Part shown: piece by piece, positions 2,491-53,548 of the stretch
Layout: each line of letters begins with the position of its first letter
Position numbering within the stretch: position 1 is the first letter of the stretch
Assembly: GCA_037176845.1 (NCBI GenBank)
Contig: JAYKXP010000181.1
Span: forward strand, 20,868-84,867
Source: Paramarasmius palmivorus
Taxonomy: Eukaryota; Basidiomycota; Agaricomycetes; Agaricales; Marasmiaceae
Direction: 5' to 3'
DNA length: 64,000 nt
Position numbers and translations under genes: made by a program
Notes under the pieces: generated by a model
Seen by the model: only the letters and a program-made list of their open reading frames with translations
Database searches by the model: none
What the model was told of the DNA's origin: nothing

Positions 2491-3296
2491 ACATACTTCG
2501 CATTTTCCCCTTTCACTTTTCCTGGTTCAACTATTTCTATGCATTTTCTCCGCTTTGAATACCTACATGCGCACATTCTACGTCACGGTATTTGCTCGTC
2601 GTCCAGTTCTTATTTTTACGCACCGAGGCTCAATGGTACTACTACTATATCATGATAGCATACTCATACGGTTTTATTCTCCTCGTAGTAGTGACCTGGT
2701 TTCGCACATCTTGACTGTATGTTTACATCCTAGATACTGGGGGTGTAGCCTTCAAGAATTCGGAACAATGTCAGTTAGTCGCGTGTTATTGTGAGGAGAA
2801 ATGGGTTGCTTGAGATTGAACGGAGATATTGACCGTCTCGATGTATGTTGTGTACGGCTGCTCAGATTAATGACTTCTTAAAACACTAGTTGAGGACGAA
2901 GATGACATCTAGACGAGGACATGGGAGCGTTCTGAGCAAGGAGAATTTGCTGGCGTCGTTTGTCCGAGTAGTTTGAAAGAGAGTGCAAAAGGAATTGTGC
3001 AGCTTGAAGACCTTGATGCCGGGGTTATTGCTCGTAGTCGGAGTTGAGACTCAGAGCAGGAACGACGAGGGACCACCTTATCAGTGATAAGATAGCCTTT
3101 TTCAGCGCTCGGCCATCCCGGCATTTGTTGGAAAGTCGGACCGATCGCCGGTGCTTCGATTCCTCGGGGAAGGGAGTTATGGGAAAGGAAGGAAGAAATG
3201 GGATTTCCTAGACGACGCTCGCAGCTTCAACACATCAAGCACAGTGGAGCCCATAGTTCGAGCAACGGTACCGTGCGTCTTCCAGAAGCGATGAGA
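2491..3296. repeat. 3' flank of M1 and left part of kinase-upstream-like block
   Basis: About 2491-2820 matches the 3' flanks of M2 and M4. From about 2820 the sequence is nearly identical to 52270-52737 and related to 23220-23508, 35800-36000 and 57850-58080, which is the block upstream of the histidine kinase. No gene is apparent. The block is cut at 3296 by the Mutator-like insertion and resumes at 18022. Confidence 0.7.
3288..3296. repeat. Left 9-bp target-site duplication of the MULE (GCGATGAGA)
   Basis: GCGATGAGA lies directly before the left inverted repeat and recurs at 18022-18030 directly after the right one. The unoccupied paralogous site in the 52.73-kb block carries it once, followed by TTCAAG, exactly as seen right of the element here. 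Confidence 0.92.
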
Positions 3297-3336
3297 GAGG
3301 GATCAGTCGATGGGTACCACTCGATCCCTTACGGCA
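3297..3336 (+). repeat. Left terminal inverted repeat of the MULE
   Basis: Begins GAGGGATCAG. Bases 3307-3336 are the exact reverse complement of 17982-18011 at the other end. Confidence 0.92.
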
Positions 3337-3947
3337 CCCATCTTCTCGTCGATCCCGACGTCCATGTCAAGTCCCTCACGTTTATGTCCGGCCGGCCTGC
3401 TGTCTCTCCTCTCTTTTTCCTCCAGATAATAAAAATTAAAACAATTACCAGGTCACACTCCAGAATTAGAAGTATCCACGACTACTCGGGTCTTCGGCTT
3501 CTGGGATATGTTGCAACGGCGGCGTTCCTCCACTGTCAACATCGGCCAAACTTCGGCGTCTTTCCTCATTCTTTGTGTCCAGGAGTATAACTGTCCTGTA
3601 CTCACATTAGTTCTGCAGGTTACATTCTCATTTTAGCTAGGCATTGTACGCTAGAGAGGCCATGAACGCCCAGTGGAAATCGTTCCAAGCTACAGCGATT
3701 CAGCGACGATAATTATCTCCCGAAAAGATCTGCAAATTACATTTAATTACCGTCGTTTCCCTAGCATCCTCAACGACAACTGACAAGAACAGCTCTTCGC
3801 AGAGTGATTCACTAATTGCAACGCCTAGTTCGCAGGGAAGGTCATATAATTCATCTATTTCCTCGGAGAATTGGAGATGAAGGATCTTTATAATCGATAG
3901 TTGGACTCTTTCGCAGAGTCCCATCTCTCCAACTTCTCTCTTAAAAT
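3337..3947. other. Left subterminal region of the MULE, no gene seen
   Basis: About 600 bp between the inverted repeat and the first gene. A 130-residue open frame crosses the element boundary (3198-3590), so it cannot be an ancestral gene. The last ~100 bp probably hold the promoter of the 3948 gene. No other structure was noticed. Confidence 0.5.
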
Positions 3948-5954
3948 ATGGTGCGCACCAGAGCCCAACTTCAAAGTCTCGACGTTCCCCCAACCCCAGC
4001 AAACACTTTAGCGACGGTGGCATCATCACCGCTCACCGAAGTTTCCTCATCCTCTCAAGCCTCCGCATCTAGCTCTTCTGTTCCTCGCCAGCGAGACATC
4101 TCCGAGACACGTTCTCGCTCTCTACCGCCGGCCTCACCGCAAATTTCACCCGCACACCGCCGCGCCAAATCCTTGCCATCGGAAGAAGAGATGAAGAAAA
4201 ACCTATCCAGCACCGTCCACCTCACCGCCGAGGAATCTCAACAACTGGCAGCGTTCAAAGGACAGATCACCTCGTTCAGACGGTATGTCTGTCCTTCTAT
4301 TGCTATCGCTCATCGTTCCTGATTTTTTTTTTCTTGCCTTCCAGCGATCAGAATTCCAGCTTGTTCGAACACCACCAACTCATCTCATGGAGCGATGGTC
4401 AATATGTTACATTTTATTGGTGCGTACAGAACCTGGATCATCACGAGCAGCAGGTAACTAATGTCGATATTACTACTAGGCCAGGTGTCGTAGGTCCCGG
4501 TGGGACCGTCATTCCTGTAGCTGCTGCCGATGCAAAGACATTTGCTCAGGCACATGCCATCAAGTGGCTCTCCTGTGTACATGGCCAACCTGTACGCATT
4601 CACTTCGTCAGCCCGAAGAATAAAAACCCCGGATTGGCAGGAACGTGGGTATTTGTCTGTGATGCGCAGGCAACCACTCTACGTCCTAGTTGTGGAGTTA
4701 TTGGTGCGTACTACGGTCCTCAACTGTTGCTACTATGTATTCTGGGCTGACTGGGAAACTTCAGCTCGTTTGAACAACTATGTTGCTGTCCATGCAACTC
4801 AGGCTCTCTTGGGACTGTACGGGGAAGTTCAAGGTAAGAGGAGATTACTTTACTTTGAATTCACTTAAACTCATTCCCTTTCACGTAGCTGACGGTACTA
4901 GAGATGTCACAATCATTCGAGCCGGGGACATCGCAGCTACCTCTGTAGCAGAAAATCTTCCGACTCATCATGTATCGGCTCCGCCTTTGCCGAATACGAG
5001 CACGCCTATTCTGTCATCTTGGACTATGAGATTCTCTCCCCAAACGACACCCACTCTCTCTCGGAGACTTACCCTTGGTGGTAGCTCACCGGTGATCTCT
5101 CCGATCGCAGGCCCATCACACCGACTGCCTTCCACATCACCAGTTCGAGCACCTAATCACTCTCCTCCCAAACTCTATTCTCCGCCTGCCCTGTCATCAT
5201 CGCCACCCCTTCCAAGCCCACAAACCGCAATTGCTCGTCGTGGGCTATCAGCTAGCATATCTCACCACGGGTTTGGGGATTTCAACTACCAAGATGCCAT
5301 CGGAGCTCTTGACTTGAACATCCCACAGGCTGCAGCCACTTCTCCCACCTCTACCAAGCAAACAGCCACCACTACTTCACTCCAAAAGCAACCCGTGGAG
5401 ATGATAGAGATTTTTGACTCTGATGAAGAGTCCAGCCGGAACGGCAAAGGAAAAGGAAAAGGAAAGGGGAAACAGGTTGTACGCGCCTCCCAGCCACTGA
5501 AAAGACCACTTACTGTCCAAGGCTCCGACGACTGTATGGAGGTACCGCCCAAGAAACCTCGCTTGGAGCGATACATGATCGCAGGTCCCTCTTCTGGTCA
5601 GACTGAGGTACCAAAGCCTGTAGATATGCCAACCAGAGGTGCGTCTTTCGATCTTTTCTACCTTGTTTTCACCGCATGCTAATTAAATAGGTTCTCGCTT
5701 TGTACGCTGGACGACGAACCCTGAGACCAACTTCAATGAAAAAAACCCTGGTACGTCTTTGTATTATTCCTATCTAAAGTGGGTATCAGGATCTCAACAA
5801 TTCCTTCTACCAGTTTCATTTTCCAGGATGCTGGCAAAGCTTCTACAACATTCAGTCGTCTTGGACAACGCAGTGTCGGCTCAAGGACTTCATCCTGAAG
5901 TGTGGAAGCTTTTCAAATCTCTTTTTGTCTCTTGTCCCCATTGTAATCAGGTGA
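3948..5954 (+). CDS. MULE cargo protein of unknown function, Ser/Pro-rich, nuclear-like
   Basis: Model of six exons: 3948-4282, 4345-4703, 4765-4833, 4889-5638, 5691-5750 and 5827-5954, all with GT-AG junctions; the summed frame closes at 566 aa. The N-terminus is MVRTRAQLQ, then Ser/Pro-rich low complexity. A globular part (about residues 110-260) has regularly spaced Trp/Cys (ISWSDGQYVTFYWCV, WLSCVHGQPVRIHF, GTWVFVCDA). A long Ser/Pro-rich linker follows, with an acidic EIFDSDEESS patch, a run of alternating Gly-Lys and a basic patch that could be a nuclear localisation signal. The short tail has RFVRWTTNPETNF...NPGCWQSF, faintly reminiscent of GRF fingers but without their cysteine set. 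I do not recognise the family. The last two small exons are the least certain. Confidence 0.6.
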
Positions 5955-6188
5955 AGGGTTTTATCACATTGGCTGTCGCGACAAAATGTAAGCCCTATTA
6001 TCTATCTTGTTATTTCTTGTCGTTTCTTGAACAGGGTTTACCCTCCTCGAGTCTATGTGGTAGTGCCTTACTTTCTTAGCTACGTTGACACCATTCGTAT
6101 TGTATTGACATGTATATATCTCATGGTTTTCTGGTACAAAATTTTTTATTTATTTATGAAAACTAGGCGTGAACAGCTTGATTAAGAT

Positions 6189-6268
6189 CACCTCTGACAA
6201 CCTCTGACACCTCTGACAACCTCTGACAACCTCTGACAACCTCTGACACCTCTGACACCTCTGACAAC
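6189..6268. repeat. CCTCTGACA tandem array, downstream of the 3948 gene
   Basis: Nine or so units of (A)CCTCTGACA(A), 7-10 nt each. The same motif recurs in direct orientation at 14319-14391 and inverted at 10493-10533, only within the MULE. It sits between convergent 3' ends (3948 gene and dioxygenase gene). Confidence 0.85.
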
Positions 6269-6332
6269 TTCACCTCCGACCGACCTCTATACCTACACTC
6301 CCTCTTTGTGGTACTATACTTTGTAGACAGAT

Positions 6333-9300
6333 TTAACCATAGATGCGACGGCGAACATGATAGTTGTCACGAATTGCCTGACGTCTGGCTGCCCTTGCGG
6401 CGTCCTTTTTCCGAATGGAGTCATGTTGTCCGGAGCTCACACCACCTCTAAGACGCATAACTTGCAGGGTATCTTCCGATGGCAGAACAGTTCCGTGTAG
6501 CTTTCTTGCATCGAACGACCTAAAGAGGGCTGAGTATATAGGACCAACAACTTCCAGGTAAAGGTCAGCCTACCATAGCATATTTGCACGCGTACGTATG
6601 TAGTACTTGTACTCCAACTGGCAAAAGCCAAACTCGGAAATAGATGCATCGGCGTCCCATCGGATCTGTGAACATATCGAACGACATGCATCTTTGTCGT
6701 CATGCAAAGGTGCTGTATATCCCTCGCATGTGAAAAGGTTGACGCCATATTCTCCAACTCGTTCGCACACCTTGCCAGTATTCCTGAGCTCCTCGAACAG
6801 ATCTGGATGCAATAGTTTCGTTACTTCTAGTTGGTACATGGATGACTGTAAAATCTATATAAGTTCCAACACAGCCTGCAGATTTGTTCAAATTACCTTG
6901 GCATGCTTGAATAAAATCTCCATCTCTTCCACAGTATCGGCTTCTATTCCGGCGTAATAGACGTATTCATCGGCCTTTCTACCACCAGATGCGACACGCG
7001 CTCCGAAACAACGCATCGATCCCGAGTTCCACCGGTCCTTGCCAGAACCACGACGGACTGACTTCACACCACTTTCCAAGTCAATCGTGGAAGCAATTTC
7101 CTCCAACACTTCTGGTGCAAACACACCAAAAGCCACGAAATCAACCTATGTCCAGGTCAACATTAAGCGACGTGAAGGGTGGTTTAGGTGCATACTAAAG
7201 GTCCACCTTCGTATTCTCGTATGTAGAACACCTGCTGCTTGCACTCCTTCAGGGTCTCCTCATGAGGCTCGAGGCAAGATAAACCAAGCTCCTCGGTAGT
7301 ATAAATTGTGGTAGGATTCTTGCGTCCTCCACCCTAAGGATCAAGTCAATAATTAAAGCCACCAATTGCCTGGGCCGGTTGTTAGATTTTACAAACCTGT
7401 CTCGGCTTCATGCGTTTATCTTTCGGAGCGTTACTAACCCCCGCGTGTTCATATCTCTCTCGTATGTTTGGGTCCCTGTTCAAAGGCATAATCACCTCTC
7501 TGCGGCATTTCCTAGTCTCATCCGTCAGAGATCCGCAGGTACTGCACGGTACCGGGTTACGCCAACGGGTTGCGCGACACTGCTCTCGAATATGTTTGCG
7601 GAATCTTGCACGAGCACGACGATATTCGATAGTGTGGTCGAGAATGGAACGAAGAGGGGCTGGGATGTCATGAAGTACATATAGCGAGCTACCCGATTCG
7701 GGATCAACCGTAGACCTTAGATTGCGGATCTCTTGGACAAACATTCGATAGACTTGCTTTGGTTTGACATGTTGGACCTGTAGATGGCAAAAATGACATT
7801 GGCCAAAACGATGCGGAGGTAGAAGATGGACTCACGATATAACCATGAGAGTTCAGGCCCCAAGACAGCCAACGATACCAATCCGTCTTGAAATTATTCT
7901 CGCTCAGTGCGAAGTAGACAAACGCTGGGTTACTTGACCGAGGGATTATGTCTGGAAACCGACACAGAGCGCCAAGGAGACTAGTTAGCTCATGAGAGCC
8001 TCCCTGTTCCGAGAGTTAGTTAGTCAATCCACAGTGAAGCGTCTGATCTCACCGATGGCACTCTCTGGTATTGTTCTTCTCCCAAAGACTCTACAGCTTC
8101 GTCACTCCATTCCTTGGGTGTCCAACGGTCGATTACGCCAGCCAAAGTTTCTGCGAAGGCATGGAGCCTGATAAAGATGGGTACGTTCAGTGACCCTTCC
8201 TCAAATTGGAACGAAGGATTGACAACCCGAGAAAGCATCTGAGCTAAGCCAGAATTCTGGATGGGAAACAACAGTGAAGAGAATCAATGAGAGGTAGGCC
8301 ATAATAGAATACCTTCTGTGCCCAGGAGAAAGATCCGGTACGATACTGTGCCGGTGGTACCTTCTTTATCGCCTGAATAGTGTTTGCCAAGAGAGATTGG
8401 GCCTCTTGGAATGACGGACTGAAGAGGTCCTCTTCCTTTTCTCCTTCAGGAACCACAGGCTTTCGGTAGATAACAGTACGCAACGAGGTTTCCCAGTGTT
8501 GACACTGCGTAAGATAAGTTTCGTAGGTAGCATCATTCCGGAACGTCAAATCCCAGCTCTGTAAATGACGACGAGGCCTAAACCTGCTGGGTACTTCCTG
8601 TCCACCTTCCGTCGTAGGAACTTCAATAGCTGCCAGTGAACGTTCGTCCTGAGTATTGTCGGTTACAAAGTCCATAGAATCGTCGAAATCGGGCTCGAAG
8701 TCATCATCGGAATCTGTGGGACTACCCGGAAGATAGTCTGAATCATACGAACCATGGGAATCGGTGGAATCATCATCCGAGTCTGAATAGCCTGAGCTAT
8801 CCCAGAGGAGATATTGCCACTCCCAGTCCTCCGTAGTGTCTTCGTCTTCAGAGTCGAGCGCCCCAATATTGCTCGCAACTTCCAAGAGCGGGCTTCGCTG
8901 TTTAAAAGGGCGCTAAGGCAGTCACGGTTAGAAACCATGGTCCTATAAGCAAAATCAACGCACCCGGCTCAAAATATGATTTTGCCACATAGCCAGATCC
9001 TCCAAAGCCTCTGCCCTTCTCCCATCCTCAACCAAAAGAAAAACGCTGATAGCCAGATCCACCATATCATTAACCGGTACGTCTTTGGACAGTTCCTGTT
9101 CGTGGCATTTGCTGGCCCATGCCAGCCAGGTGACTACTTGCTGTATCTTGCGTTTGGATAAGTTAGAAAAGAGAACTCTCCGAACGAAGCCTACGCACAA
9201 GTGACTCGTTCCCTCGGAAGGTGGTTAACCACCGGTCTCTCCAAGGTTTGTATGCGGCATCTGAAGACCTCCGGGTGTTGTACGTTAGTTCCGACGTCTG

Positions 9301-9435
9301 TTTCGCCAGCTGCCTTAGATCTTGACTGGCCGTCTCAAGAGTCTCCTTCAGAGGAGAGGGGATCACCGTAGGAATAGTCGGGGGTCCACGGGGGTATGCC
9401 CAGAATCGATAAGGTGTTGTGTCGACGTGGTTCAT
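6333..9435 (-). CDS. 2OG-Fe(II) dioxygenase-like protein, TET/JBP-type candidate (MULE cargo)
   Basis: Multi-exon minus-strand gene; ATG at 9433-9435, stop at 6333-6335. Exons read by eye join MNHVDTTPYRFWAYPRG..., an IQQVVTWLAWASKCHEQ exon (intron with a perfect CTAAC branch site), an acidic Asp/Ser-rich exon around 8330-8885, and exons around 8060-8265, 7845-8005, 7395-7785, ~7205-7335, ~6898-7145, ~6570-6840 and 6333-6528. The C-terminus has GYTAPLHDDKDA followed about 49 residues later by SFDARKLHGTVLPS and then a downstream Arg. This is the H-x-D...H...R layout of the double-stranded beta-helix 2-oxoglutarate/Fe(II) oxygenases. Fungal TET/JBP DNA dioxygenases are known to travel with transposons in basidiomycetes, so 5-methylcytosine oxidation is a plausible role, but assignment to TET/JBP is inference. 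The N-terminal ~600 residues are unrecognised. Confidence 0.62.
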
Positions 9436-9726
9436 CACAGAGATGCTGAGCTTATGTCATAGACATAATTTCTGGTACTTATGTCATAGATATGTAACGA
9501 TTAACGCCTACTTACAGGCTACCTGACCTATGACTACCTATTGAAAGATGAGACGTGCAAAAAACGTTCTGAGGGTGAAAAACAGGAAAGAAAAGTAGGA
9601 TAAGGCCCTTGAGAGATCCTCTACCGGCAACCGTTGTACGTTTAACGGTTTCGTCTGTAGGTGATCAACGTAGAGAGTAAGTAGGGGTACGGCCTCTGGA
9701 TATCGCAGGTACATACCGGTAACGAA

Positions 9727-10067
9727 GGCTGATATGAACAGCCGGTGCTCCTGGATACCAGCACGGAGTACCCATCCTTCTACGGCTTTGCTCTGGGTAG
9801 GGGGTAGAGGTGCTGCAGGGCCGGTGAGTACGACCAGTCGCGAGTATGAAAGCCGATATGAACAGCTGGTGCTACGGTGTATCGAGCATGGCTTCATAGG
9901 GTACGGTATCGGTGGGGGTTACAGGGAGGGGTAGGTACAGCACTCATGAAGGCTGATATGAACAGCCGGTGCTCCTCGGTACGCGAGTATGACCGGTCGT
10001 GCGTTCAGGGTTCGAGGGGGTAGGTACATGAGCACTCAAGAAGGCTGATATGAACAGCCGGTGCTCC
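9727..10067. repeat. Four copies of a ~25-nt hairpin-forming repeat
   Basis: Copies at 9727-9751, 9851-9873, 9951-9975 and 10043-10067. The consensus GGCTGATATGAACAGCCGG is followed by TGCTCC. The arms GGCTG and CAGCC pair around a 7-nt ATATGAA loop. In copy two the outer pair changes from G-C to A-T on both sides, which keeps that pair. Spacing is 124, 100 and 92 bp. Confidence 0.8.
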
Positions 10068-10492
10068 AGGGTATCGAACCGTAGGGGTTGTGCCATGTGC
10101 GGTGGTGAAACCCCAGCCTTTCAGCCTCCGGAACACCCCAATGCTACTAGAGGGATGAGGCATTCCGGACTATGAGGGCAGGGGTGTAGGCAGGGGTGTA
10201 GGTAGCGAGTAGGGTCGGTAGGGACGGTCCACAGAGGGCTTGAGGTGGTAGACTAGGTAGCGTCGTTCCTGGGGCAAGATTTAGTAAACGTTACCGTAGA
10301 ACGTGAAGGGATACGCACCGTAAAAGATCTGACGCAGACTCACAAGCTTCGGGTACGCACAGAGAGGAGAGTGGCCGGGAAGGATGACGGGCAGGACGAA
10401 GAAGAGGGACAAAGAGGAGAGGGACAAAGAGGAACAGGTCAAAGTCGGTCAAAGTCAACCTCGCGTAAATGACATGTCACATGTCACGCGTT

Positions 10493-10533
10493 GTCAGAGG
10501 TGTCCGAGGTGAGTCAGAGGTGTCCGAGGTCCG
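10493..10533. repeat. Inverted CTCTGAC motif array before the JmjC gene
   Basis: GTCAGAGGTGTCCGAGGTGA-type units, the reverse complement of the arrays at 6189 and 14319. The array lies 40-75 bp upstream of the JmjC start. Confidence 0.8.
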
Positions 10534-10569
10534 AATGCCGTTATCCGCCATTTTTTTCTTCTAGTCATC

Positions 10570-12897
10570 ATGTCCGGCGACGTCGTGTCGGTCTATTCTC
10601 GTTTCCTGGACTCTCCTCTCGATATCTTGCCCAAGACTGACGAGGACGAAGGGTCCTGGATGTCGAGAATTAACCCCGAAGGAGTCAATTTACACCCATC
10701 GACCATACGATTCTTCAAAACGCGCCCCGATGGGGATGAGGCCGCATGGAAAGTGAAATTCAAGCGCAACCACACCAACTTAACGGCCAAAAAGAGAGCG
10801 TAGGTCGACAATAACGCGGGTATTTTCATCTTCTCACCGAACGTTATCTAGGGGACCAGAGAAAATCAAAACCCGTGATCGTATCAACCAGGCAAATTCA
10901 CGGTTCGTTTTCGCTCTCCTTTGCGTCGGGGCCTTCTGATGAATCGTTGGTCTCTAGTCAACGTAAACGCCAGAAAGTCGAAGTTTTGGATGCACCGAAC
11001 CCAGAAGAACACCCATCCCCAGTAGATTCTCCTCCGAGTCACGATGCCGTGCTTGCGACTGCTACGCCTACCCGGAAGCTAGACATCTGCGATATTCAAA
11101 GACCTTTCATGGAGAAAGGTGCCGAACGGATAATATGGCAAGGAGACTGTGGAGGGGAACTGTCCATGCTACTGCCGAGTATTGCTGGACAGCAAGGAGA
11201 CAACGAACTGGAGCCTGTGAGTGTCTGCTCTAAGGTATCAAATCTCAACTGCTAAACGTCTGAGTATCCAGGTGTGCAGATACCTGAAATATTTGTCGCA
11301 GACACCACTAGCTGAAAAGAGCAGCGACTACGTTCTCCGAATTTCACCGGAGGATTTGCCTCGAGACGCGACTCAGCTATATCAGGTCATCCGAGAGGCT
11401 TTGAGTCGCAACAAGATGGTCCATCTTGTCGGGTATAGGACACCTACGTCAACATTGTCGGAGTTCAACGTCGGTTTTATAAAGACCCACCATATATCGC
11501 CTACAAGGCCGGTCACCGTTCACTGTAAGTAAATGACCGTCCTTCGTAACCCTATCACTCCTGGTTCTAATGACTAGGCGTGGTCTTCAGCTTTACTTAC
11601 ACACACTCGCTACCAAACCATTGATGGATGCTCAGATGGTACGGAACAAACGGACATAGGAACGTTTCTAGAGAGGATGTACAATCCCTCGACCATAGAA
11701 GCAGTGCTGGCGATCAACATGGTTGGTAAGACGTTCGGGGAGCCAGCGGAGTAAGTTTCGTTTCAGAGTTTGCATCTGCTACAGTTTTTTGATCCGCAGG
11801 CATAGGAGCTTGAACGATGTCCTAACCGTTTGCCGCAACATCGAGTACGAGGAAGCCAATATGTATGCCCAGCACGCTTTGAACCATGCCGTGTGGGGGC
11901 TGCTACATCATGCAGGTTACTTCACCTTCAATCATCAGGACGCCGGTGGTGAATTAGCCGTGTCTGGAGTTGAGCAGGGTTACAAACTTTGGACAGGATA
12001 CTTCCTGAGATGTGAGAATCGCATTCTCCACGAGAAAGAAGTGGTACGCCTCTGTTCAGCCCCTCTTCAGGAAGATCTCGAGTCTCGAAACATCAAGACC
12101 GTAACGATTCTGCTCGCACCAGGTGATGTACAGTAAGTTCCAAGTCAAATCTTCGGTGATGGCCCAATAGTATCTCACCACAACTTTAGTTTACAGCCCC
12201 CTGGGCTGGTACACTCAGTCTACACCCCTGTACCATGCTTTATGAAGGGGTCGAGTATGTGGTTATACGACACCCTGCATCACACGGAGTTATCCAGGCG
12301 GGTTGAGTGCTTGAAAGGCAATCTCGTGACCAACCAAGATTTCGACCAGGAGCTTATCTACACACAACTGACGGCAATGCTTTTCGGTTTAAAAGTTTTA
12401 CGGGCTATGGATCCTACCTTCCGTGAGCAAGTCACCTCCTCTTTGTTGCTACACTACTAAAGCACAGCTGGTCAGAATTCTATGAATATCCTCTATTAGC
12501 CTTATGTTCAATGCTTTTGGACGCTTCGTATTACATCCCCGCCAAGTCAAAAGCTCGCCTATTTCCCTCTTTCACGATGTACCAAGGAATTGTGCTACGA
12601 TCGACATATCTGGCTACCACATATGGCGCTCTGTGTCTTGCCAACTTCCTAGCTCCCTCGGTGCTAATGGGCAAAGAGATCACACCACCTCAAGTGGGGG
12701 ATTGTCCCCAGCCTCGAGATAAGGTGAAAGACGTCCGACAATACCTCAAGGAACTCGGACCTTTTTCTAAGCTATGTGAAAATACTGCCCGTGAGATTCG
12801 TGAACTCTTGGGAGGTCAGCCGCTGGCAGAGAAGGGGCGTAAGGTAGACTCTGAGTCGATGGACTTGACTTTAAATGGCATATCTTGGGACTTGTAG
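10570..12897 (+). CDS. JmjC-domain 2OG-Fe(II) dioxygenase-like protein (MULE cargo)
   Basis: Eight-exon model: 10570-10799, 10852-10902, 10958-11216, 11272-11524, 11591-11750, 11800-12132, 12190-12422 and 12476-12897. Phases agree at every junction and the frame sums to 646 aa. There is a basic QRKRQK patch near residue 95, a possible nuclear signal. The catalytic fold is seen as HAGYFTFNHQDAGG (H-x-D iron ligands) and LLAPGDV...QPPGLVHSVYTP, where the His is the third ligand; spacing and context match the JmjC domains expanded in Agaricomycetes. The region before it (VIREALSRNKMVHLVGY) resembles the usual JmjC entry helix. JmjC enzymes demethylate histones or hydroxylate proteins, but the substrate here is unknown. 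It is divergently placed from the TET/JBP-like gene across a 1.1-kb control region. Confidence 0.8.
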
Positions 12898-13006
12898 CCT
12901 TATATTTCATTACAGGTGTAATAGAACATGGTTGATCAAACAAAATATTTTGTTGGGCACCACCTCTCAAGTGACAGGTTACACAGTTGAGTACAAGACG
13001 TAGGTA

Positions 13007-13845
13007 TTAGAAATTAGGATAGACGTAACCCCCACCAACGATGTTGACCACTGGACGTTGAGTGAATGGGATGGACAGTACCGCCGTGTTTCCTAGGAGA
13101 ACAGCCGCCACGAAGGCATCGACAGCCTCTTGATAAGTTTCACGAAAGACACGCATAGCTCTCGGAACACCTGATACCAAAGACGAGGTGGAATCACTGA
13201 ATGCAAAATGTCCATAGCGTCAATCCAGAGCCCAAGAGAAACAAAGAGGAAATAACACGCACTGGCCACGTAGAACACCGATTCGCAGGCCTCTGATGAC
13301 TGCATACCACCGAAGGTCCGGTGGTATCTCACCCACAGCTCCCACTTCGGTACCTGCGGGTGCTGGGCCCAAGGGAAGATTGGGAAAAGGTAGAGGAAGG
13401 GCCCGGGTCGGTCCTGCATTGACAAAGATGAGCGACGCTGGAAAAGGAACTCAGTATTCTCTCAAGAATATTTCAACATTTTGGTGGACATACTAGGGTC
13501 CGGGGCTACATTGGCACGCTCATTCAAAGCAGTTTCCTGCGAGACTGTGAGAGCTCCGGCCAAGTCTGTGGGCAGTTCATAGGATAATAGTAGATCAGCA
13601 TAGTAAGCGGCTCAAAAAAGAGAAACGACGTACTCAAGGCCCCAATCAGATCATTGAGGAACTGAATATCGTGGTTGGATCCAGGTATGATGCCAGTGGA
13701 TATCAGAGAAGGGTGAACCAATTGAACGGTGAAGCCTGAACATCGGTGAGCAACTGATATGTGTAGAGAGGGGAACAATGCTGGAGGCTTACTCACCTTC
13801 GCTTCGCAGAACGACGAGTGCATCGCTGACCGTTGGAATAGACAT
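13007..13845 (-). CDS. Small protein with ribonuclease H1 N-terminal (viroplasmin-like) domain
   Basis: Starts MSIPTVSDALVVLRSE, ATG at 13843-13845, stop at 13007-13009; about five exons can be joined in frame (first intron 13736-13796). The C-terminal half reads PDLRWYAVIRGLRIGVLRG, then after an intron VSGVPRAMRVFRETYQEAVDAF. This is the WYxVxxGxxxGVF...VxGxxxAxxxxFxxxxEAxxAF pattern of the RNase H1 N-terminal domain, which binds RNA/DNA hybrid or double-stranded RNA. No RNase H catalytic domain is attached. It sits between the JmjC and transposase genes. A nucleic-acid-binding accessory role in transposition is only a guess. Confidence 0.6.
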
Positions 13846-14401
13846 TAAGAAGTGATCTGGAAAGATTCAAAGGATGCTGAATTCCTGAAGGCCAAGGGTG
13901 CAAGTCGGCCAGTATTTATGCAGAGGAGCAGACAAAGCTTAGTTGTAGGATTATACGTACGATAAAGGCAAGAGTCCGTGCCATCCAATTATCAATTATA
14001 TTGGTCCTCCTTTCTCCTCGTCCTTTCCCGAGGATTTGGAAGTTGAAAGCTGTTCATGGAAGTCTAGAAGGAGACCAAAAAAGGCTTGATAAAGTGCTTC
14101 GTAATTAGTTGTCCAGGAATTAGACACGTTGGAAGTGTTGTGTAATAAATTTGACACTGTTCCGCTGGAGTGAGGCTCGACTGGACGTCGCTCCGCCACA
14201 AATTAACACCCGAAGGTCTTCGATAAGAACCTGGAGATCTAGTTGAATTTCTAGAAATGAAAAGATCTCAAACGTTCTACAGGCAAATTGGAACATTACG
14301 TCGATCGTGGAATTAGGTCACCTCTGACACCTCTGACACCTCTGACACCTCTGATCTGACACCTCTGACGCCTCTGACACCTCTGACACCTAGTACGTCC
14401 T
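13846..14401. other. Intergenic stretch with CCTCTGACA array, no gene seen
   Basis: Between the RNase H1-N-like gene and the transposase, both on the minus strand. It contains the third CTCTGAC array near its right end. One 67-residue minus-strand open frame (13996-14199) has no recognisable features. Confidence 0.5.
14319..14391. repeat. CCTCTGACA tandem array at the 3' end of the transposase gene
   Basis: Seven or so units of CACCTCTGA(C), direct orientation, just beyond the transposase stop (14402-14404). Confidence 0.85.
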
Positions 14402-17400
14402 TCATCCCAGGATCTCTTCCTGTGGATACTCGATATCAACCATCCCAGAGCCTATTGCACCCTCATCCATCTGCACAGAAATATCTCGTAGTTCTTGATA
14501 CTTCTTCATCGCTTTATCATACGACTTCTTGGCTTTTTCGTAAGTTCCCAGGCTCTGGCAATCTTGAAGGCGTGTTCTGGCTTTAATGCAGGTCTGATAT
14601 GCTCCACTGAGCTTGGAATTCTGAGCGACAATGAGCTGATCTTGCGCCTCGAGTTGCTTGTTTCGTGTGTTGCCTGTCATATCCAAGATTAGCAGGAATA
14701 TTCAATGTGTTGGCCCGAAGACATCATACCGAAACGCGTGATGCTTCTTTGCTCTCGGCGAGTGGGCGTGTTTATACGATAACGTGCAGAGATTCCCATT
14801 TGTTTGACCGTCTACATCATGAAATTTTAGTAAGTTATATCTTCAAAGGGTGGTGTTTTTACCGTGTTGGTTTGCAGTTGAACACGGTCGTGATGACCTC
14901 CCTGTATGACCCCACCCACCAAGGAGAGCTGTGACCCTTCTTGTAGCACATTTTGATGCTGAGATTCACTAATATTTGTCGTCGCTTCGCTAGCTTGCCA
15001 GATCTTGGACGGAATCTTGCTCCTTTCCCAACATATTGCCGGAAATACAAACTTGCATCGAATCTTGTCCTGTAGCCAATCTAGAGAGAGTCCTGGATTA
15101 GATGCCGGTCATAGTCACAGACAATGAATGCACTTACCATTGCCTGTTTTTCCTCCATACTTTGCGATATATTGGATCGTGGGATCCCAGTTGGAGTGAG
15201 TATAGCACATAAGGCTCTTCATCGCCTTTTGCACATTCGGATGACAGTGTGTCTGAGTAATGTTTCGGTGAAAGTGTGTAACACATAGGCGCAGAATACG
15301 CTGAAGATGCTCCCAGGGCGAGAGCTCACTTAGGAGGCGTCCAGTCTCGTAAAGATCATGCCGTCCTGGAGGCGATATCACCTGTAGGAACTGCCCTATG
15401 CCTTCGGTGCAGCCATGAGTTTGAGTACGAAACTTCCAAAGTATGGTATTTTCACCTTTAGCTTGACCGCTGTGCTGATCAACCGACCAGGTTAGAATTC
15501 CCTGGAAGTCGATATCTTCCGCGTGACTACCGTGCAAATGTCGGAATTGTAGTCCCTTTCCGGTATCCTGGTATACAATGGCATGGATCTCCAGTAAAAG
15601 TAGCTTGTGCGCTTCTGCACTCTGACGGTTTAGAAAGACGCGAGCATAGGTAACACCTAGTGGTGACAAAGTAAAGGTAAACAGGTAAAAAGATTAGGGG
15701 ACGGTGCTTACTTGTGCGAGTAACAGAGTCCTTGCCAGTTAGCTCGAACTCTAACCAGCAGGTGACGCGTTTGAAGCTGATGTCTGTCTGAACATGTCTG
15801 GCTTCATTTACTAGGCGAAAGGAATTGGCCTGGGTCATGCAAATGACAAGACGAAACGGTTCTGTGCTGGGTTCGCTATCATCAGCGAGAACTATTTGCT
15901 TGGCGCAACGGATGTATCGTTCATGTGGCGAGAGCGCGGCATCTTGCGTTTCTTTGAGGTGTAGAAGTCCTGTAAACCATGCATCAGTGATGGGTGAAAC
16001 GTACAGGAGAGTTGATTACCTTCCCAGCCTGTACCGCACGGATATATCAATCTTTGGGCGTAGTCAATATAGCTTTGAAGGTGATCCATATTGGTGAGCG
16101 ACAGATGAAGGTCGATAAAAGTGGGATTGGTAATAGCTGGCAACTTCTGACGGAGATATGTTTGAGCTGCAGGGCTTCTCATCAGTCGTCTGGAGGTGAG
16201 ATTAGGCAGATCATCGAGAGTCTTGAAAAATTGGATGAGTTCGTGTCGTATAGATCGAGGTGTTTTAAGAGTAGCTGGAATAGGATGGGTATGAGGGCCA
16301 GTACAGACAACAAGTACCCGAGGACATGCATGACGGTACTCCTCATGTGGCTCGTAAACATCCACACTAGAGCTACACAGCAGGCGATCAAGCTCGGTCA
16401 TGATGAGCTGGCCGTTCGGGCTGCGGTGATGGTTTTCTACGTTCAAAGTGTGACTCGGTGAGTGATAGTAAGAGTTTCGGGTATATACAAACTTACCACA
16501 GTTAGTTTTGTTGGTAGATTGGTTGCGCACTGTCGTACATGGGACTAGGGGACCATATCCTTGGAGCTGCATTTGCTTCTCATAATGAGAGATGGTATCG
16601 CAATCCCGTTCAAATAAAGCAGAGAAGTAATCAACGTCGTAGGCCCCGGCACTGATCCAACGGAAGGTGTGGGTCTTGGAGGTCACTGCGTTGTAATGTT
16701 CACACCTGTGAATTGCGGAGCATCGTAGTTCATCAGTTAACAAGTCTTATCACAGAGGTAGCTATATCTTAACTGGACTATAGCGTCGTTCCCAGCACGT
16801 ATGAGGCGGAGACGTCCTTTACACTTCGATTTCGTTTCCTGACCGCGTTTGGCCTTTGTGGGAGTTCGTCGTACGTTATCCCGTTCTTTCTTCTCCCCTG
16901 GTGAGAGCATAGTTACCTCTATAAGTGGTCCAAAGCACCCGTTGTCTCGAAAGGAAGCCCAGAGCCCGAGAGTCTTCTCGTGAACGTCACGTATTGGATG
17001 TGAATGTTGAAGGGAAAGGCTGTGGTCAACATATAGACTCCGTGCTTCACGATTTACCTCTGTATGCGACTGGGTAACACGATCTAGGTCAACAAAGGGA
17101 CATAGTTTGACACCCTGGCCTAGAATTTTGGATAAGCTTAGTAGTTATTGAAGGGACAATGTCTGATCACTCACAGGTTGTTGATCGCTTAACACAAGGG
17201 ACCATATTTCCTTCAGAGTCTGTCAAGATCCTTATAGTGACTGAGGGCTTTTGTCCTTTGGGAATACCCAGGGAATAGGCAAGGTCAAGTGCTGGATTTC
17301 TCCAATTTTCCGGGTCCATTTCAAACAAATGCCCTACAGGGTCATCCGTTGCTGCACTAGTAGAAAGATAGGCCTGAATACTATTCTTCGGGTGTCGGTG

Positions 17401-17478
17401 AAGTCGGGAAAGAACCGTCTCGCGATTAATACGCACGGGGTTATTAACCGCCGGGTTCAGCAGTTGGCTGATGTTCAT
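14402..17478 (-). CDS. MULE-type DDE transposase
   Basis: Multi-exon minus-strand gene starting MNISQLLNPAVNNPVR (ATG 17476-17478) and ending in a coiled-coil tail (stop 14402-14404). The N-terminal part carries a Cys/His-containing region (CEHYNAVTSKTHTFRW) and a THPIPATLKTP motif seen in this Agaricomycete transposase family. The core has VQTDISFKRV (first Asp), a TWSVDQHSGQAKG region (second Asp), CVTHFHRNI, and near the end FVFPAICWERSKIPSKIW followed by ATTNISESQH (Glu) and LVGGVIQGGHHD. This is the D...D...E order of Mutator-like transposases. The element's 9-bp target duplication supports the assignment independently. Intron positions were read by eye; the second intron donor is uncertain. 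No in-frame stop was noticed in the main exons, so it may be active. Confidence 0.72.
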
Positions 17479-17981
17479 AGTAGGCGAAGAGATGCGGAAA
17501 TGGTACGGTATAGCTCAGTTGTTGCCAAGGCAGGAGGTATATACCTCAGAGTGCAGCGCGAGCATTAGTCCTACAGCCTGCAAGCATGAGTCACTAGATA
17601 GCGGTTTACTTCAACGAGCCAACAAGATTAGTCCAGCTGGCAGCGGGGACTTGGTGCTTGATTTTTCTAGGTCCTTTTGCCCAGCGGTGAATCCTTCATG
17701 GCTTGAGTTTCGGTTCCAGCTTGCCAGGGGATTCGCCCGAACAGAACTTGGGAACTAATTAATGAAACGTCCTTACTTAAACAGAAGCGGCGGGACGGAA
17801 CGATGATGGGAGTTACAAAACAAAGCGTTACAAGAATGGGTGACTGTTACATGGTGCTACATGTCACTGGACATAAAAAACGTTCCTCCGGGGGCTCCGG
17901 GAGCTCCGTGTTGGCCGAATGTTTTCTCATGGGATTGCCGGCGGCTGTCCCTTTTTGACAGCTTTCTGTCCCTGATTGTAT
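17479..17981. other. Right subterminal region of the MULE (transposase promoter side)
   Basis: About 500 bp between the transposase start and the right inverted repeat. No gene; a C/G-rich CTCCGGGGGCTCCGGGAGCT-like stretch lies near 17885-17910. It should contain the transposase promoter. Confidence 0.45.
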
Positions 17982-18021
17982 GCCGTAAGGGATCGAGTGG
18001 TACCCATCGACCTAGACCTCG
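17982..18021 (-). repeat. Right terminal inverted repeat of the MULE
   Basis: Its reverse complement starts GAGGTCTAGG, and the next 30 bases are identical to 3307-3336. Confidence 0.92.
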
Positions 18022-18030
18022 CGATGAGAT
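18022..18030. repeat. Right 9-bp target-site duplication of the MULE
   Basis: GCGATGAGA, identical to 3288-3296. Confidence 0.92.
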
Positions 18031-18856: not shown

Positions 18857-21067
18857 GCTGACAAACCAAGCACGTGTTCTCTTCCTTGTCATCGATGCTC
18901 TGAGTCTTGCTGCCAATCTTCCTAGCCTATTCCCCCCACATCGTGACCCTACCCATAAAAATACCACGCCCTTTGCTCTATCTCGAAGCTGTTTTCATCA
19001 ACTCGGAATACCACCATACAACACTTCTACTACCAACTCTATAATGCGCTGGCGAGGAGACCCCCGATAGGCAAGAAAGCACACAAGTGTCAAGCCAGGT
19101 CTGATAGAGGAATGCCCTAGGTTATAACGGGAGTGCGTGCGTCAAAGCCTTACTATATCACCTCACAAGCTAATAGCTCTTCCAGAAAATTAACGATTCA
19201 CTTTCCCCGCTCACGGGCGAAGAAAAGAAGCAGAGAAAGGAATCGATTACCTACTCCTCCGAAAACCAACATCGTCCTCCTTGATTCTCAACGTCAACCC
19301 ATTGTCAATACCTCAAAGACTGCCTCTTCCATCAGGATACGATATGCATGCTCACTCGAGTCATACTCCTTCTCCTACACGCGTATCGACCAATTATATC
19401 AAAATTATATGGATGATATGTCTCTGGTGCCAGTGGTATGTATCAACATCTCTAGTTTCGGCGCATTCTTATGCAGTTTCGTCCTCTACCACAGACTCTC
19501 AATAGTTAACGATCATGGATAATAGCTCCAGGAGACATTTCCGTTCAAACAGTGCCTTTCCGACTCGATATCCCTTCCGCATACAGGATTTTTGCCTAGT
19601 CCTTCTGCATCGTCGATATCTGGTTCACCAACTCAAGTCCCGTCATTCTAGTCGTTTGGCCCCTCGTTTTTATCTCTCCTGAACATCTCCATCTCCATCC
19701 TTCCCCTTCAACCCGCAACCGCAGCGACATAAACTATTGACGACCACGATCCTACACGTGCCATACAATGGGGATACACTATCTCCAGCCCATCCCAAAT
19801 GCCTCCGTGTACGACGGTTTCCTTGCCTATACAACACTGTGCAGACCTACATCCTAATACTACCACGCTCTGCCCTTCCGAGGTACAACTGCATACACCT
19901 CTTCGCTCCACGCGAGATTTGCCAGTCCGATTCACGGGTCCACTTTCATCTCATCTCGTCCTTCATACACCCCTCGTGCATGTATCGCTCCTGAGTTCAG
20001 GACGGTTTGCTCTCCATCGAACGCAAGCTTGGATAGTTGTTCAGGGTAGTTGCTGCGACTCCCGAGGTTGTTCGGTACCGAGTCCCGACTGACTTGGCAG
20101 AAGTTTTTCGCGTTCTAGATCTAGACACTGGTGTTTCTTCGCTACTTCGCAGCTTCTCAAGTCGTAGCATCAGGACTATTGTACAGGTACGAGCAGTATC
20201 TCGCCTTTCTAGGCCAATTCTAACCCTTTCCTTGGTAGATATCCTCGGAGCCGGCTGGCGAACTTGCATCTTCTGCAAACCGAAATTCGCCTACGCTCTC
20301 GTCACCCATTCTTGCTGTTACTTCGTATGTATCCCTCTCATTGTGGGATATACACCTATCTAACCATACCGTCATTTTCAGATTCTCCGAAACTGATAAA
20401 CGTTGCATCAGATAGTAGACGTGCTTGTCGCAGCTGTATTCTACTCCGTTTTGATGATCAGCCGGAAGGCAAGAATAGAAGCTGACCTTACCTTTGATGT
20501 ATACCGTAAACTATTGGATTCTCCCAAGCACGCCTCAAGAATTGGTAGCTGGAATGACACGCCGGCGCTAAAGCTCCTTCAATCGAGGGTGCAGGGCATG
20601 CACAACGCCACAACACACGGTCTACGTGTGTTTGAATTCTTATTACTCGCAGTACTGGTGAAGAGTGAATAGGAGCCCCTGCCTGTGAAGTCGCAGCGTT
20701 GACTTGTCCCGCGAGAAAGAAGCCTGTACTCAATGGCACCTATTGAGTATTCGCCGAGAACTTCGGTATGAAGTTTATCTTATGCATTGTCAAATATGCG
20801 CTTTCATAGTACAATATTTCCAGGTATGTCAGTTCAATCACGGAGTCTCGATCGTTTCTCATCGCTCCATGAAAGGTCTTTGCCGTGTTCTACAAAGTCT
20901 TCAATGCATCTTTACGCCGTAGTGGCTGCTGCATTCGATCTGTCACAATCAACATGTGGTATCGCACGGTACTGTGCCTTCCACAAAGTGTGTACTACAC
21001 ATGTTCAAGGACTGGAATACATGAAATATACAGCAAACTAGCTATTCCTCCGCAAAATCCCATCGAG
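18857..21067. repeat. Decayed spacer of unit 1, between kinase relic and M2
   Basis: A ~2.2-kb stretch nearly identical to 53549-55588 and more distantly related to 30934-33506 and 44741-47507. The first ~100 bp align with the kinase 5'UTR and start-codon region. Open frames (e.g. 19133-19522, 20037-20363) shift frame or end at different points in the sister copies, so no intact gene is supported. It may be the remains of a multi-exon gene once located between the kinase 5' end and the next membrane gene. Confidence 0.5.
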
Positions 21068-22838
21068 ATGCTCCTCCTTTATGCTCTCGCAAGACCTATC
21101 TTCTCAAACACGGGGCCCTCGTCAGCGGGTAACTCTACCGTATTCGATCCGGTTACTGGCGAATGCAACGACATCCACGGATGCAGGACGGCGCCTCAGA
21201 TACTGTGGAACTGTCTCTCGGTGATCTTCATTTGTACATGGGTCGCTATTCATCCGAATGTCCCGCATGTCAAAGCGCACCGAGCAGTGGTGTTGTTTTG
21301 TAATGGCTTGCTGATGGTTCTGGCTATGCTTGCGCCGGAACTGATTATATTGTGGGCGATAAGGCAGCGGTATTCTGCTGAAGCGGTTGCGGAGAAATAT
21401 AAGAGTGAGAACCCTGTATTTCGTAGGATCGATAGTGGCTGAGTCGTTTCTAGAGTATGGTTGGGGGATGGCCCATGGGTTTCTGGTGATTATGGGAGGT
21501 TTCGCACTTTACGATGGTGATGAATTTCAGAGTTATCTATGGAATGACTCTAACGATGATGTCAACTCGGACATGGTCGAAATAATCCGTGGGTATCACC
21601 AAAAAAGTCGAGCCAATAATATAGAGCTTGATGTGCAAGTCAATACGCAGATTGAGGAGTTGAAGCGCAAAGAGGAGGATGCAGATCCCATGCCAGAGAC
21701 AGACGAGACGTGTTTAATTACAGGGCCCAAACCGGAAGATCGCGCTGAATCTGAGAAGTCGGTGAGAAAGCTTCTCCACTGCATAACATACCCAGCCTAA
21801 TCCTATTACCAGAACACACAAAGATCTTCGACTTTAATGCTGGAATATCTACTCCAAAATGGCAACATCCGAACCACAGAGGACGAAATCATGGACAACC
21901 TCAGCCACAGCGACTCCATCACAAAAATTATTGCAGTCATCCAGACTGCATGGTTCCTACTCCAAGTCGGAGCTCGTGCAGTAGAAGGACTAGCCATCAC
22001 CGAACTCGAAATCATCACGGTTGGCTTTGCGGTGCTGAACTTTGGCACGTATTTCTTGTGGTGGAATAAACCACTTCGAGTTAGGCATCCTGTACGTGTC
22101 TACTGGCGTCAACAGGAGATAGAAGCAAAAGGGGACGGGAAGAGTAGCACAGAGGGATGGATGGCCAAGGCTCAGGAGTTTGTTGTGGGAGTTTGGGATT
22201 CAGTCCGAGAGGCATCTGTCGAATTTGGGAGATCAATGGTGGTTGTTTTCAACTTCCTTAAAAATCCATTTGAAGGTGACCCCCAGTTGAACGACAACAG
22301 TCTCCCAGATATCAATTGGATCACACTACTGCAACTTATCGGCCTTCCGTTTCTGGTGGTGCTTCGCCTAATTATGGCATCTATAGGCATTATCGCAGAT
22401 GACAATGACAAGTATATGGCATTCGTCATCAACTCTTCCAGGCTGAAAAAGGAATCATTCACCCTGTACATCCTCGTTTATGGCCTCACAACTCTCTTTG
22501 GCGCCATCCACTGCATCCCATGGAATTTTCAATTTGCAACACATATGGAACAGTTGCTCTGGCGTATTTCGGCTGGTGGGCTCGTTGTTTTGCCTATCGG
22601 ATTAGCTGTCATCTTCATTATCCTTTTGCCGATTGAGGCTTTGGTCGATTGGTGTGGGGGGAACGGTCAAATGTCTTTTGGTGTTTTGGTTGCAGCCTTT
22701 GACATATTCCTGCTTCCCATTGCGTACTTCGTCGCCCGGGTCATCCTCATAGTCCTTGCCATCATGGAACTGCGAAACCTTCCCCAGAGCGCATACCAGA
22801 CCGTACAATGGACCACTTTCATTCCCCACATTGGTTAA
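21068..22838 (+). CDS. Polytopic membrane-protein paralog M2
   Basis: Intact three-exon copy: 21068-21404, 21454-21761 and 21813-22838, with introns of 49 and 51 nt and 556 aa in all. The N-terminus MLLLYALARP is hydrophobic, followed by a likely lumenal segment with Cys33/Cys39. Hydrophobic segments lie at about 45-62 and 73-97, a YGWGMAHGFLVIMGG block at ~114-128, a charged ~75-residue loop at the end of exon 2, then LAITELEIITVGFAVLN at ~275-291. A variable charged loop follows (QQEIEAKGDGKSS...), then four more hydrophobic stretches ending MELRNLP. The family is widespread and expanded in Agaricomycetes with no known function. Exons 2-3 up to the variable loop are nearly identical to M1, whereas the 3' end is nearly identical to M4. 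Confidence 0.82.
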
Positions 22839-52268: not shown

Positions 52269-53548
52269 GAAGATATTGACCATCTCGATGTATGTTGTAT
52301 ACGGCTGCTCAAATTAATGGCTGCTTAAAACACTAGTTGAGGACGAAGATGACATCTAGACGAGGACATGGGAGCGTTCTGAGCAGGGAGAATTTGCTGG
52401 CGTCGTTTGTCCGAGTAGTTTGAAAGAGTGTGCAAAAGGAATTGTGCAGCTTGAAGACCTCGATGCCGGGGTTATGGCTCGTAGTCAGAGTTACGAGCAG
52501 GAACGACGAGGGACCACTATCAGTGATAAGATAGCCTTTTTCAGCGCTCGGCCATCCCGGCGTTTGTTGGAAAGTCGGACCGATCGCCGGTGCTTCGATT
52601 CCTTGGGGAAGGGAGTTATGGGAAAGGAAGGAAGAAATGAGATTTTCTAGACGACGCTCGCAGCGTCAACACATCAAGCACGGTGGAGCCCATAGTTCGA
52701 GCAACGGTACCGTGCGTCTTCCAGAAGCGATGAGATTCAAGACAATCAATCGGCGTACGCATGAGTCTTCCAGAAGCGAGAACGAGGCATGAGACAAGGT
52801 GAGAAGGGGTGCTGAAGATGCAAGGAAAGGCATTCAATAGTGATGGATGTATTGAAAGTCAGATTGACATGATATGTCGCGCGAGAACAGTTGTGAGATT
52901 CGAGGATGGAGGTCGTCTGACCAGTGGAGAGATGATCTGCGAGGGTATTGATTGGGTAGATTGCTTGAAACGTTCATTGCTTTGTGCGATTTCGCTGATA
53001 GAGAGGCTGAACGTGGTGGTGTGGGAATGGTTGAGGAAGGCGCGTGCTGGTCGTGTGCTGGCATCGAGTATAGGGAAAGAGAATAGAGATAGGCCCAGTC
53101 AGGAAAGGGTAGGAGGACCGATCGAGAGCTCGACGTTGGCAAGGATGCAAAAGATCCTACGTTCCAGTATGTACTTGCAAGAGATAATCGTAGGGTGGGG
53201 CCATGTGGTGATCAGGAGAGGCTAGCGCCGATTCGGAGTGTAAACGATTGACCCTTGGAAGCCCTTGGAATGTAAAGACTCTCGAGGGAGTGTTTTAAGG
53301 GTAGAGCAGAAGGGCTTGTGGGTGGTTGTGGGCTACACAGTGCAAACACAGTGTCAAATGGTAGTATAGAGAGGACTTGGAGTACGCACTATGCAAAAGA
53401 TTTCACTGTCCCTTTTCTATCTTGTTTCTACCTCTCCTTCGCCTCTCCTCTTTTCTGTTTGGCCTCTTTCTGCTCTTCCGCTCAGAGAACCAGTTCTAAG
53501 AAAAAACCAGGACTGACGTCACCAGCGTCTAGACTCCCTATCTGAAAT
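52269..53548. repeat. Kinase-upstream-like block of unit 4, empty MULE site at 52729-52737
   Basis: Uninterrupted version of the block split at 3296/18022. It reads GAAGCGATGAGATTCAAG across the MULE target site, and is >95% similar by eye to 2830-3296 plus 18031-18856. It contains a perfect TGACGTCA (53514-53521). Open frames are shared with 18123-18551 but not with the true kinase upstream region, so they are not taken as genes. Confidence 0.75.
53514..53521. promoter_or_regulatory. CRE/ATF-like site TGACGTCA in duplicated kinase promoter (unit 4)
   Basis: Same position relative to the GCTGACAAACCAAGCA kinase-5'UTR motif as 18822-18829. Confidence 0.4.

Follow-up and report, generated by a model that had tools for sequence, protein, structure and literature searches.

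A 64,000-nucleotide stretch of the Paramarasmius palmivorus genome (68.3 Mb), which we call the window, corresponds to bases 20868–84867 of contig C181 (84,867 bp). At positions 3297–18020 of the window lies a Mutator-like transposable element (MULE) whose transposase gene is accompanied by a JmjC-like gene and a candidate TET/JBP-like gene. A preliminary description of this stretch had reported 40-bp inverted ends, a perfect 9-bp target duplication, and a paralogous empty site, and all of these hold up; there are two empty sites in the window. The start of the element was also placed correctly, but its last base is 18020, not 18021. The terminal inverted repeats (TIRs), target site duplications (TSDs), and empty sites are:

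3297–3336, + strand: left TIR, 40 bp, 36/40 identical to the right TIR
17981–18020, − strand: right TIR, 40 bp, 36/40 identical to the left TIR
3288–3296: left 9-bp TSD, GCGATGAGA, a perfect match to the right copy
18021–18029: right 9-bp TSD, GCGATGAGA, a perfect match to the left copy
52518–52800, + strand: paralogous empty site 1, flanks joined, one GCGATGAGA at about 52727–52735
57861–58160, + strand: paralogous empty site 2, flanks joined, one GCGATGAGA at about 58070–58078

One unit of a repeated array harbors the element; two other units within the window have the same flanks unbroken, with a single GCGATGAGA. A genome-wide search found no second copy with exactly these ends. Within the element, we built five spliced gene models, using a simple splice finder together with manual modeling:

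3948–6079, + strand: gene A, 633-amino-acid (aa) model, 5 exons; unknown and Ser-rich, starts with MVRTRA, C-terminal CPHC; last exon uncertain
6333–9435, − strand: gene B, 873-aa model, 10 exons; candidate TET/JBP-like 2-oxoglutarate (2OG)-Fe(II) dioxygenase with HDD...KLHGT...RLRGG; corresponds to VNI00_017615
10570–12897, + strand: gene C, 646-aa model, 8 exons; JmjC-like, with NHQD...PPGLVHS; corresponds to VNI00_017616
13007–13845, − strand: gene D, 195-aa model, 5 exons; RNase H1-N-like by its relation to the copies on contigs C1 and C11 and by position
14402–17478, − strand: gene E, 854-aa model, 8 exons; Mutator-type DDE transposase

Two of these models correspond to NCBI proteins from the same contig: VNI00_017615 (872 aa) matches gene B at 99% identity, and VNI00_017616 (625 aa) matches gene C at 96% identity. 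As the preliminary description had it, these two dioxygenase candidates are transcribed divergently. None of the five spliced models matched a Pfam family above its cut-off, and neither did the unspliced open reading frames (ORFs). Profiles made from B, C, and E found no relevant match among PDB sequences.

Whole-genome protein searches showed that relatives of E, C, and B cluster on shared contigs, and we found four diverged lineages of the element:

Window lineage, 3297–18020: order A+ B− C+ D− E−
C1-type lineage, C1 1318571–1333574: order A+ C+ B+ D+ E−
C8 lineage, C8 708535–723183: order A+ D− C− D− E−
C3 lineage, C3 418578–434613 (read except for 446 bp, 423110–423555): order E+ D+ C+ D+ A−

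Genes A, C, D, and E are present in all four lineages, and B is present in two (window and C1-type). These counts cover this genome; relatives from other species were available as proteins only. The preliminary description had proposed checking in related Agaricomycetes whether all five proteins co-occur between matching TIRs and 9–10 bp duplications; in this genome, A, C, D, and E do so in all four lineages and B in two. It had also named the lack of any other copy with this cargo as grounds for giving up its account; elsewhere in this genome, the cargo does recur between TIRs related to those of the window.

Relatives of gene A were found by searching on C1 and on C28/C297. In the C3 and C8 elements, we recognized gene A by eye, from its start (MxxTRSRS), its C-terminal CxxC, and its position; tblastn gave no match to these at E = 1. 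A single piece of gene D, joined by hand from the C8 copy, passes the cut-off for the RNase H1-N domain (PF01693; E = 5.5e-5). One D gene of C3 matches PF01693 below the cut-off (E = 0.014), and the remaining two D genes of C3 and C8 were recognized by eye; the C8 one was scanned against Pfam without a match. The earlier label of RNase H1-N-like protein fits the related C8 copy, but gene D of the window itself has no Pfam match.

Across aligned codons, amino acid identity between lineages is 48–52% for E, 40–46% for C, and 46% for B. The proportion of synonymous differences (pS) is 0.76–0.87 and that of nonsynonymous differences (pN) is 0.34–0.43, as measured from aligned stretches with E values up to 1e-5, excluding stop codons and Ns. 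Because the synonymous sites are saturated, we do not give dN/dS ratios between lineages. In a midpoint-rooted tree of 17 transposases (E from the window and 16 homologs, leaving out C8), the window's E lies outside a group that joins the C3 and C11 copies with Marasmius sequences (support 100/99). This implies that the lineages predate this species or moved between species.

The ends of the elements are related as well. The lineages share a TIR core of about CGATgGkTACC within ends of about 40 bp (G[AT]G....GTCGATgGkTACC...). The C8 element is flanked on both sides by TATGTGTCGT (10 bp) and the C3 element by TGCTGCGGC (9 bp). In the C1 element, the two ends lie on the same contig, but its flanks do not match each other. 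Instead, the flank of its A-end, CTGAAGCTG, pairs with an E-end on C11 (915006), and the flank of its E-end, CGCGCGTGA, pairs with an A-end on C297 (28152). Similarly, the A-end on C28 has GACATCGTTC in common with the E-end at C8:1054255. These three C1-type insertions, which are known from their ends and in part from their insides, have perfect duplications of 9, 9, and 10 bp that are crossed between contigs. The ends on C297 and at C8:1054255 are the partners that had been predicted, whereas the one on C11 had been predicted for C28 and paired with C1. Gene content had suggested that the end on C11 and the start on C28 were one split element, but we dropped this because the C11 flank matched C1. 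Altogether, all six insertions have TSDs, of 9, 10, 9, 9, 9, and 10 bp, three of them within one contig and three paired across contigs.

The stretches of C11 and C28 that we compared are 93–99% identical to C1, and the ends on C297 and C8 are identical over 100 bp and 69 bp, respectively. The crossed duplications reflect either a copy switch by the assembly inside the element or a half-exchange between two elements. The pattern on C1, C11, and C297 is that of a reciprocal exchange inside the element (or of misassembly). Behind the perfect TIR at C8:1054255, transposase matches at 1055–1056 kb contain many stops.

Two lineage-specific TIR patterns each had 10 matches genome-wide, and backward-pattern controls had none. 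A shorter pattern of 15 bases, allowing one mismatch, had 20 matches, versus 23 in controls; its exact matches (n = 3) all fall on termini of the elements on C3, on C8, and in the window. More single TIR-like ends, with 1–3 mismatches, are at C45:426150, C33:28052 and 407465, C192:9943, C32:378218, C68:222515 and 259214, and C87:60441. These are possibly shorter or non-autonomous relatives.

The assignment of the carrier to the Mutator type, which the preliminary description had also made, is supported by the TSDs, the TIRs, a D-D-CxxH-E motif in the transposase, and an IS256-like fold. Among 16 relatives of the transposase, D523, W729, and E740 are invariant and D606, C653, and H656 are at least 90% conserved (numbering from P0001, a relative of gene E with a long helical C-terminus); the motif of ISCth4 was used for comparison (PMC7780238). 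The fold is that of the IS256/Mutator transposases, and the TSDs of 9–10 bp fit the range of 8–11 bp given for MULEs in the accessible text of PMC6446971. In Pfam, one of the 16 relatives matches PF00872 below the cut-off (E = 0.038), and PF10551 is absent from their matches at E = 1. A WRKY-GCM1-like N-terminal zinc domain is frequent in MULEs. It is very improbable that the carrier belongs to another superfamily (hAT, KDZ, or IS3EU). hAT elements make TSDs of 8 bp, and ISCth4 ranks above Hermes. Also, all six insertions have TSDs of 9–10 bp, as against 7 bp for Kyakuja in the accessible text of PMC12730594.

Gene C accompanies the transposase in all four lineages. An HxD motif (as HQD, HED, HKD, or HHD) and a second His (PPGxxHSVYTP) are present at all five loci (window, C1, C28, C3, and C8). 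Pfam matches are all below the cut-offs: PF08007 at E = 0.2 in one of three full proteins, PF08007 at 0.023–0.16 in three of three fragments, and PF02373 at 0.085–0.12 in two of the three fragments. Among the matches listed, all three members of gene C carry the UniRef label "JmjC domain-containing". (The homolog searches scored the best candidates, 7997 for B and 7999 for C, so numbers of members are lower bounds.) These motifs and labels support the view that gene C is a JmjC-like gene, in agreement with the preliminary description.

For gene B, the preliminary description had proposed a TET/JBP-like dioxygenase. The HxD...H motif is there, but neither Pfam nor hhalign nor AlphaFold2 supported TET/JBP identity, so we consider it a candidate only. 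HxD, KxHGT, and R[LM]RGG are kept at five of six gene B loci, which are those with stop-free segments; at the remaining locus, on C167, HDN stands in place of HxD and the segment contains a stop. Neither PF12851 nor another 2OG profile matched any of four gene B members or three C-terminal pieces. When PF12851 was searched against the genome, the sole match was on C207, below the cut-off, and gene B was not matched. C207 carries two inverted gene copies (at 15504 and 60999; L090 and L091) with this weak match to Tet_JBP (E = 8.4e-4). By eye, gene B and the C207 protein have a similar order and spacing of HxD, EF, QL, LW, and the second H. However, their pairwise scores are at the level of shuffled sequences and hhalign found no match between them; anchored shuffles equaled the gene B/C207 score in 174 to 512 of 5000 cases for four members, which is weak. 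The preliminary description had suggested structure prediction for both dioxygenase candidates; the AlphaFold2 model of B was built from four sequences and is unusable (pLDDT of 43.8, and below 50 for residues 587–872).

That B is another kind of 2OG oxygenase, or resembles one in its HxD and HGT by chance, so that only the JmjC link is real, is a possibility we take seriously, though it is not the one we favor. Every sequence and structure test of B was negative or uninformative. On the other hand, HxD, KxHGT, and R[LM]RGG are conserved at the five stop-free loci, and by eye the order and spacing of HxD, EF, LW, and the second H are like those of the genome's only PF12851 match, a resemblance that the anchored shuffles show to be weak.

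Gene B is also found apart from most of the other genes. Relative to the copy on C163, gene B has dS of 1.86 and dN of 0.27 (ratio 0.14); two fragments on C167 have ratios of 0.44 and 0.58 and stops inside, and judging from its sequence, the C167 gene is a decayed relic. We compared about 1.5 kb around the matches on C163, C167, and C13. Similarity at the DNA level is limited on C163 to gene B and one 68-bp stretch outside it, is confined on C167 to the inside of the gene, and ends on C13 about 30 bp beyond its 3' end. A search for inverted repeats next to the B copies on C163 found none at one copy and an 11-mer at the other. A short stretch of gene A is present on C163 too (86570–86704, 84% identity), so there may be a decayed element there. 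Another gene B-like fragment, at C178:46650, lies outside this element family. The scatter of gene B resembles the passive transfer between transposons in the accessible text of Kojima 2025 (PMC12730594).

Repeated transposition, shared ends, conserved genes that are inherited together, and conserved catalytic motifs are what we observed. We lean towards the view that these are autonomous multi-gene MULEs of an agaric, whose companion genes most likely allow the element to be expressed despite host silencing. The gene E transposase would recognize the ends of about 40 bp, move the element, and duplicate 9–10 bp of the target. It would travel with a companion set of A (unknown), D (RNase H1-N-like), and C (JmjC-like) in all four lineages, with B in two. 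C and B would be active Fe(II)/2OG enzymes that act on silencing marks: C may remove or hydroxylate a repressive histone mark or a chromatin protein, and B may oxidize methylated bases on the element's DNA. A JmjC-like cargo, joined in two lineages by a candidate DNA-base dioxygenase, fits the idea that transposons bring anti-silencing tools with them. Because C is steady and B is patchy across the lineages, the histone- or protein-side enzyme C may be the core, with the DNA-side B as an add-on. More tentatively, and doubtful as a whole, a chromatin-modifying JmjC enzyme might have become a fixed part of the core of this Mutator lineage, paired in some members with a mobile DNA-base dioxygenase, so that a single transposon would carry an anti-silencing module of two layers (histone and DNA). 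No match to B or C turned up on six contigs with remoter relatives of E (C123, C64, C20, C119, C43, and C138), which weighs against a universal role for these companions.

Alternatively, A, B, C, and D could be host genes that were captured passively, as in Pack-MULEs, and have no role for the element. MULEs tend to pick up fragments of host genes, according to the accessible text of PMC6446971, and B occurs without most of the other genes on C13, C163, and C167. But the same set of A, C, D, and E is in all four lineages even though the synonymous sites of C and E are saturated, the catalytic motifs are kept in C and B, and among the best candidates gene C has just matches of under 100 residues outside the elements (on C41, C101, and C48). 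This makes passive capture quite improbable. Less remote, but still unlikely, is that the JmjC-like and TET-like proteins serve the transposition complex, by hydroxylating the transposase, the gene D protein, or nucleic acid intermediates, and do not act on host chromatin. JmjC enzymes include protein hydroxylases, RNase H1-N is a nucleic-acid-binding domain, and C travels with D and E in four lineages. Against this, escape from methylation-based silencing is what has been proposed for transposons that carry TET genes, in the accessible text of PMC12730594.

All the lineages that we found have a JmjC-like gene, and some have a TET-like gene as well. One element family in one genome therefore offers a natural comparison of the JmjC-like enzyme alone with both enzymes together. 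This comparison could separate effects on histone marks from effects on base methylation.

As for the site of insertion, the host array has 5 related units in the window (20873–22838 and its repeats), one of which carries the element in its downstream flank. The frames of the array units, where read, resemble a multi-pass membrane protein. Within the element, short repeats of the "cacctctgaca" type occupy two intergenic places (6188–6290 and 14317–14393).

TET/JBP-encoding DNA transposons of fungi were reportedly described by Iyer in 2014. The preliminary description took TET/JBP with KDZ elements to be the established link, which is out of date: the accessible text of Kojima 2025 (PMC12730594) places TET/JBP genes in ten transposon lineages, with Mutator not among them, and describes their function in fungal transposons as lacking experimental validation. 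The main text of that paper contains none of the words "Mutator," "MULE," and "JmjC," and we found no report of a transposon-encoded JmjC gene in fungi in the open-licence literature, as judged by titles and the starts of abstracts. Like those fungal elements, as far as the accessible text describes them, ours are DNA transposons with a candidate TET/JBP 2OG dioxygenase adjoining the transposase, with intact frames, and with a TET gene seemingly passed between kinds of elements. Unlike the AG type, B has Ser instead of Asp at H+11 in a gapless alignment; unlike the PE type, which has HxE, B has HxD. Gene C shares with JmjC-domain proteins the HxD...H iron motif, the UniRef label, and sub-threshold similarity to PF02373 and PF08007, but it is borne by a transposon, falls under the Pfam cut-offs, and has long additional N- and C-terminal regions. 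Compared to other MULEs, the elements are large (14.6–16.0 kb, with about five genes), their transposase has no Pfam MULE or Mutator match over the cut-off, and they have a JmjC-like companion, of which there is none in the accessible text of the MULE survey (PMC6446971). Nevertheless, they share with MULEs the TIRs, the 9–10 bp TSDs, a DDE transposase with CxxH and W, and the IS256-like fold, and extra ORFs are reported for several MULEs in the same text.
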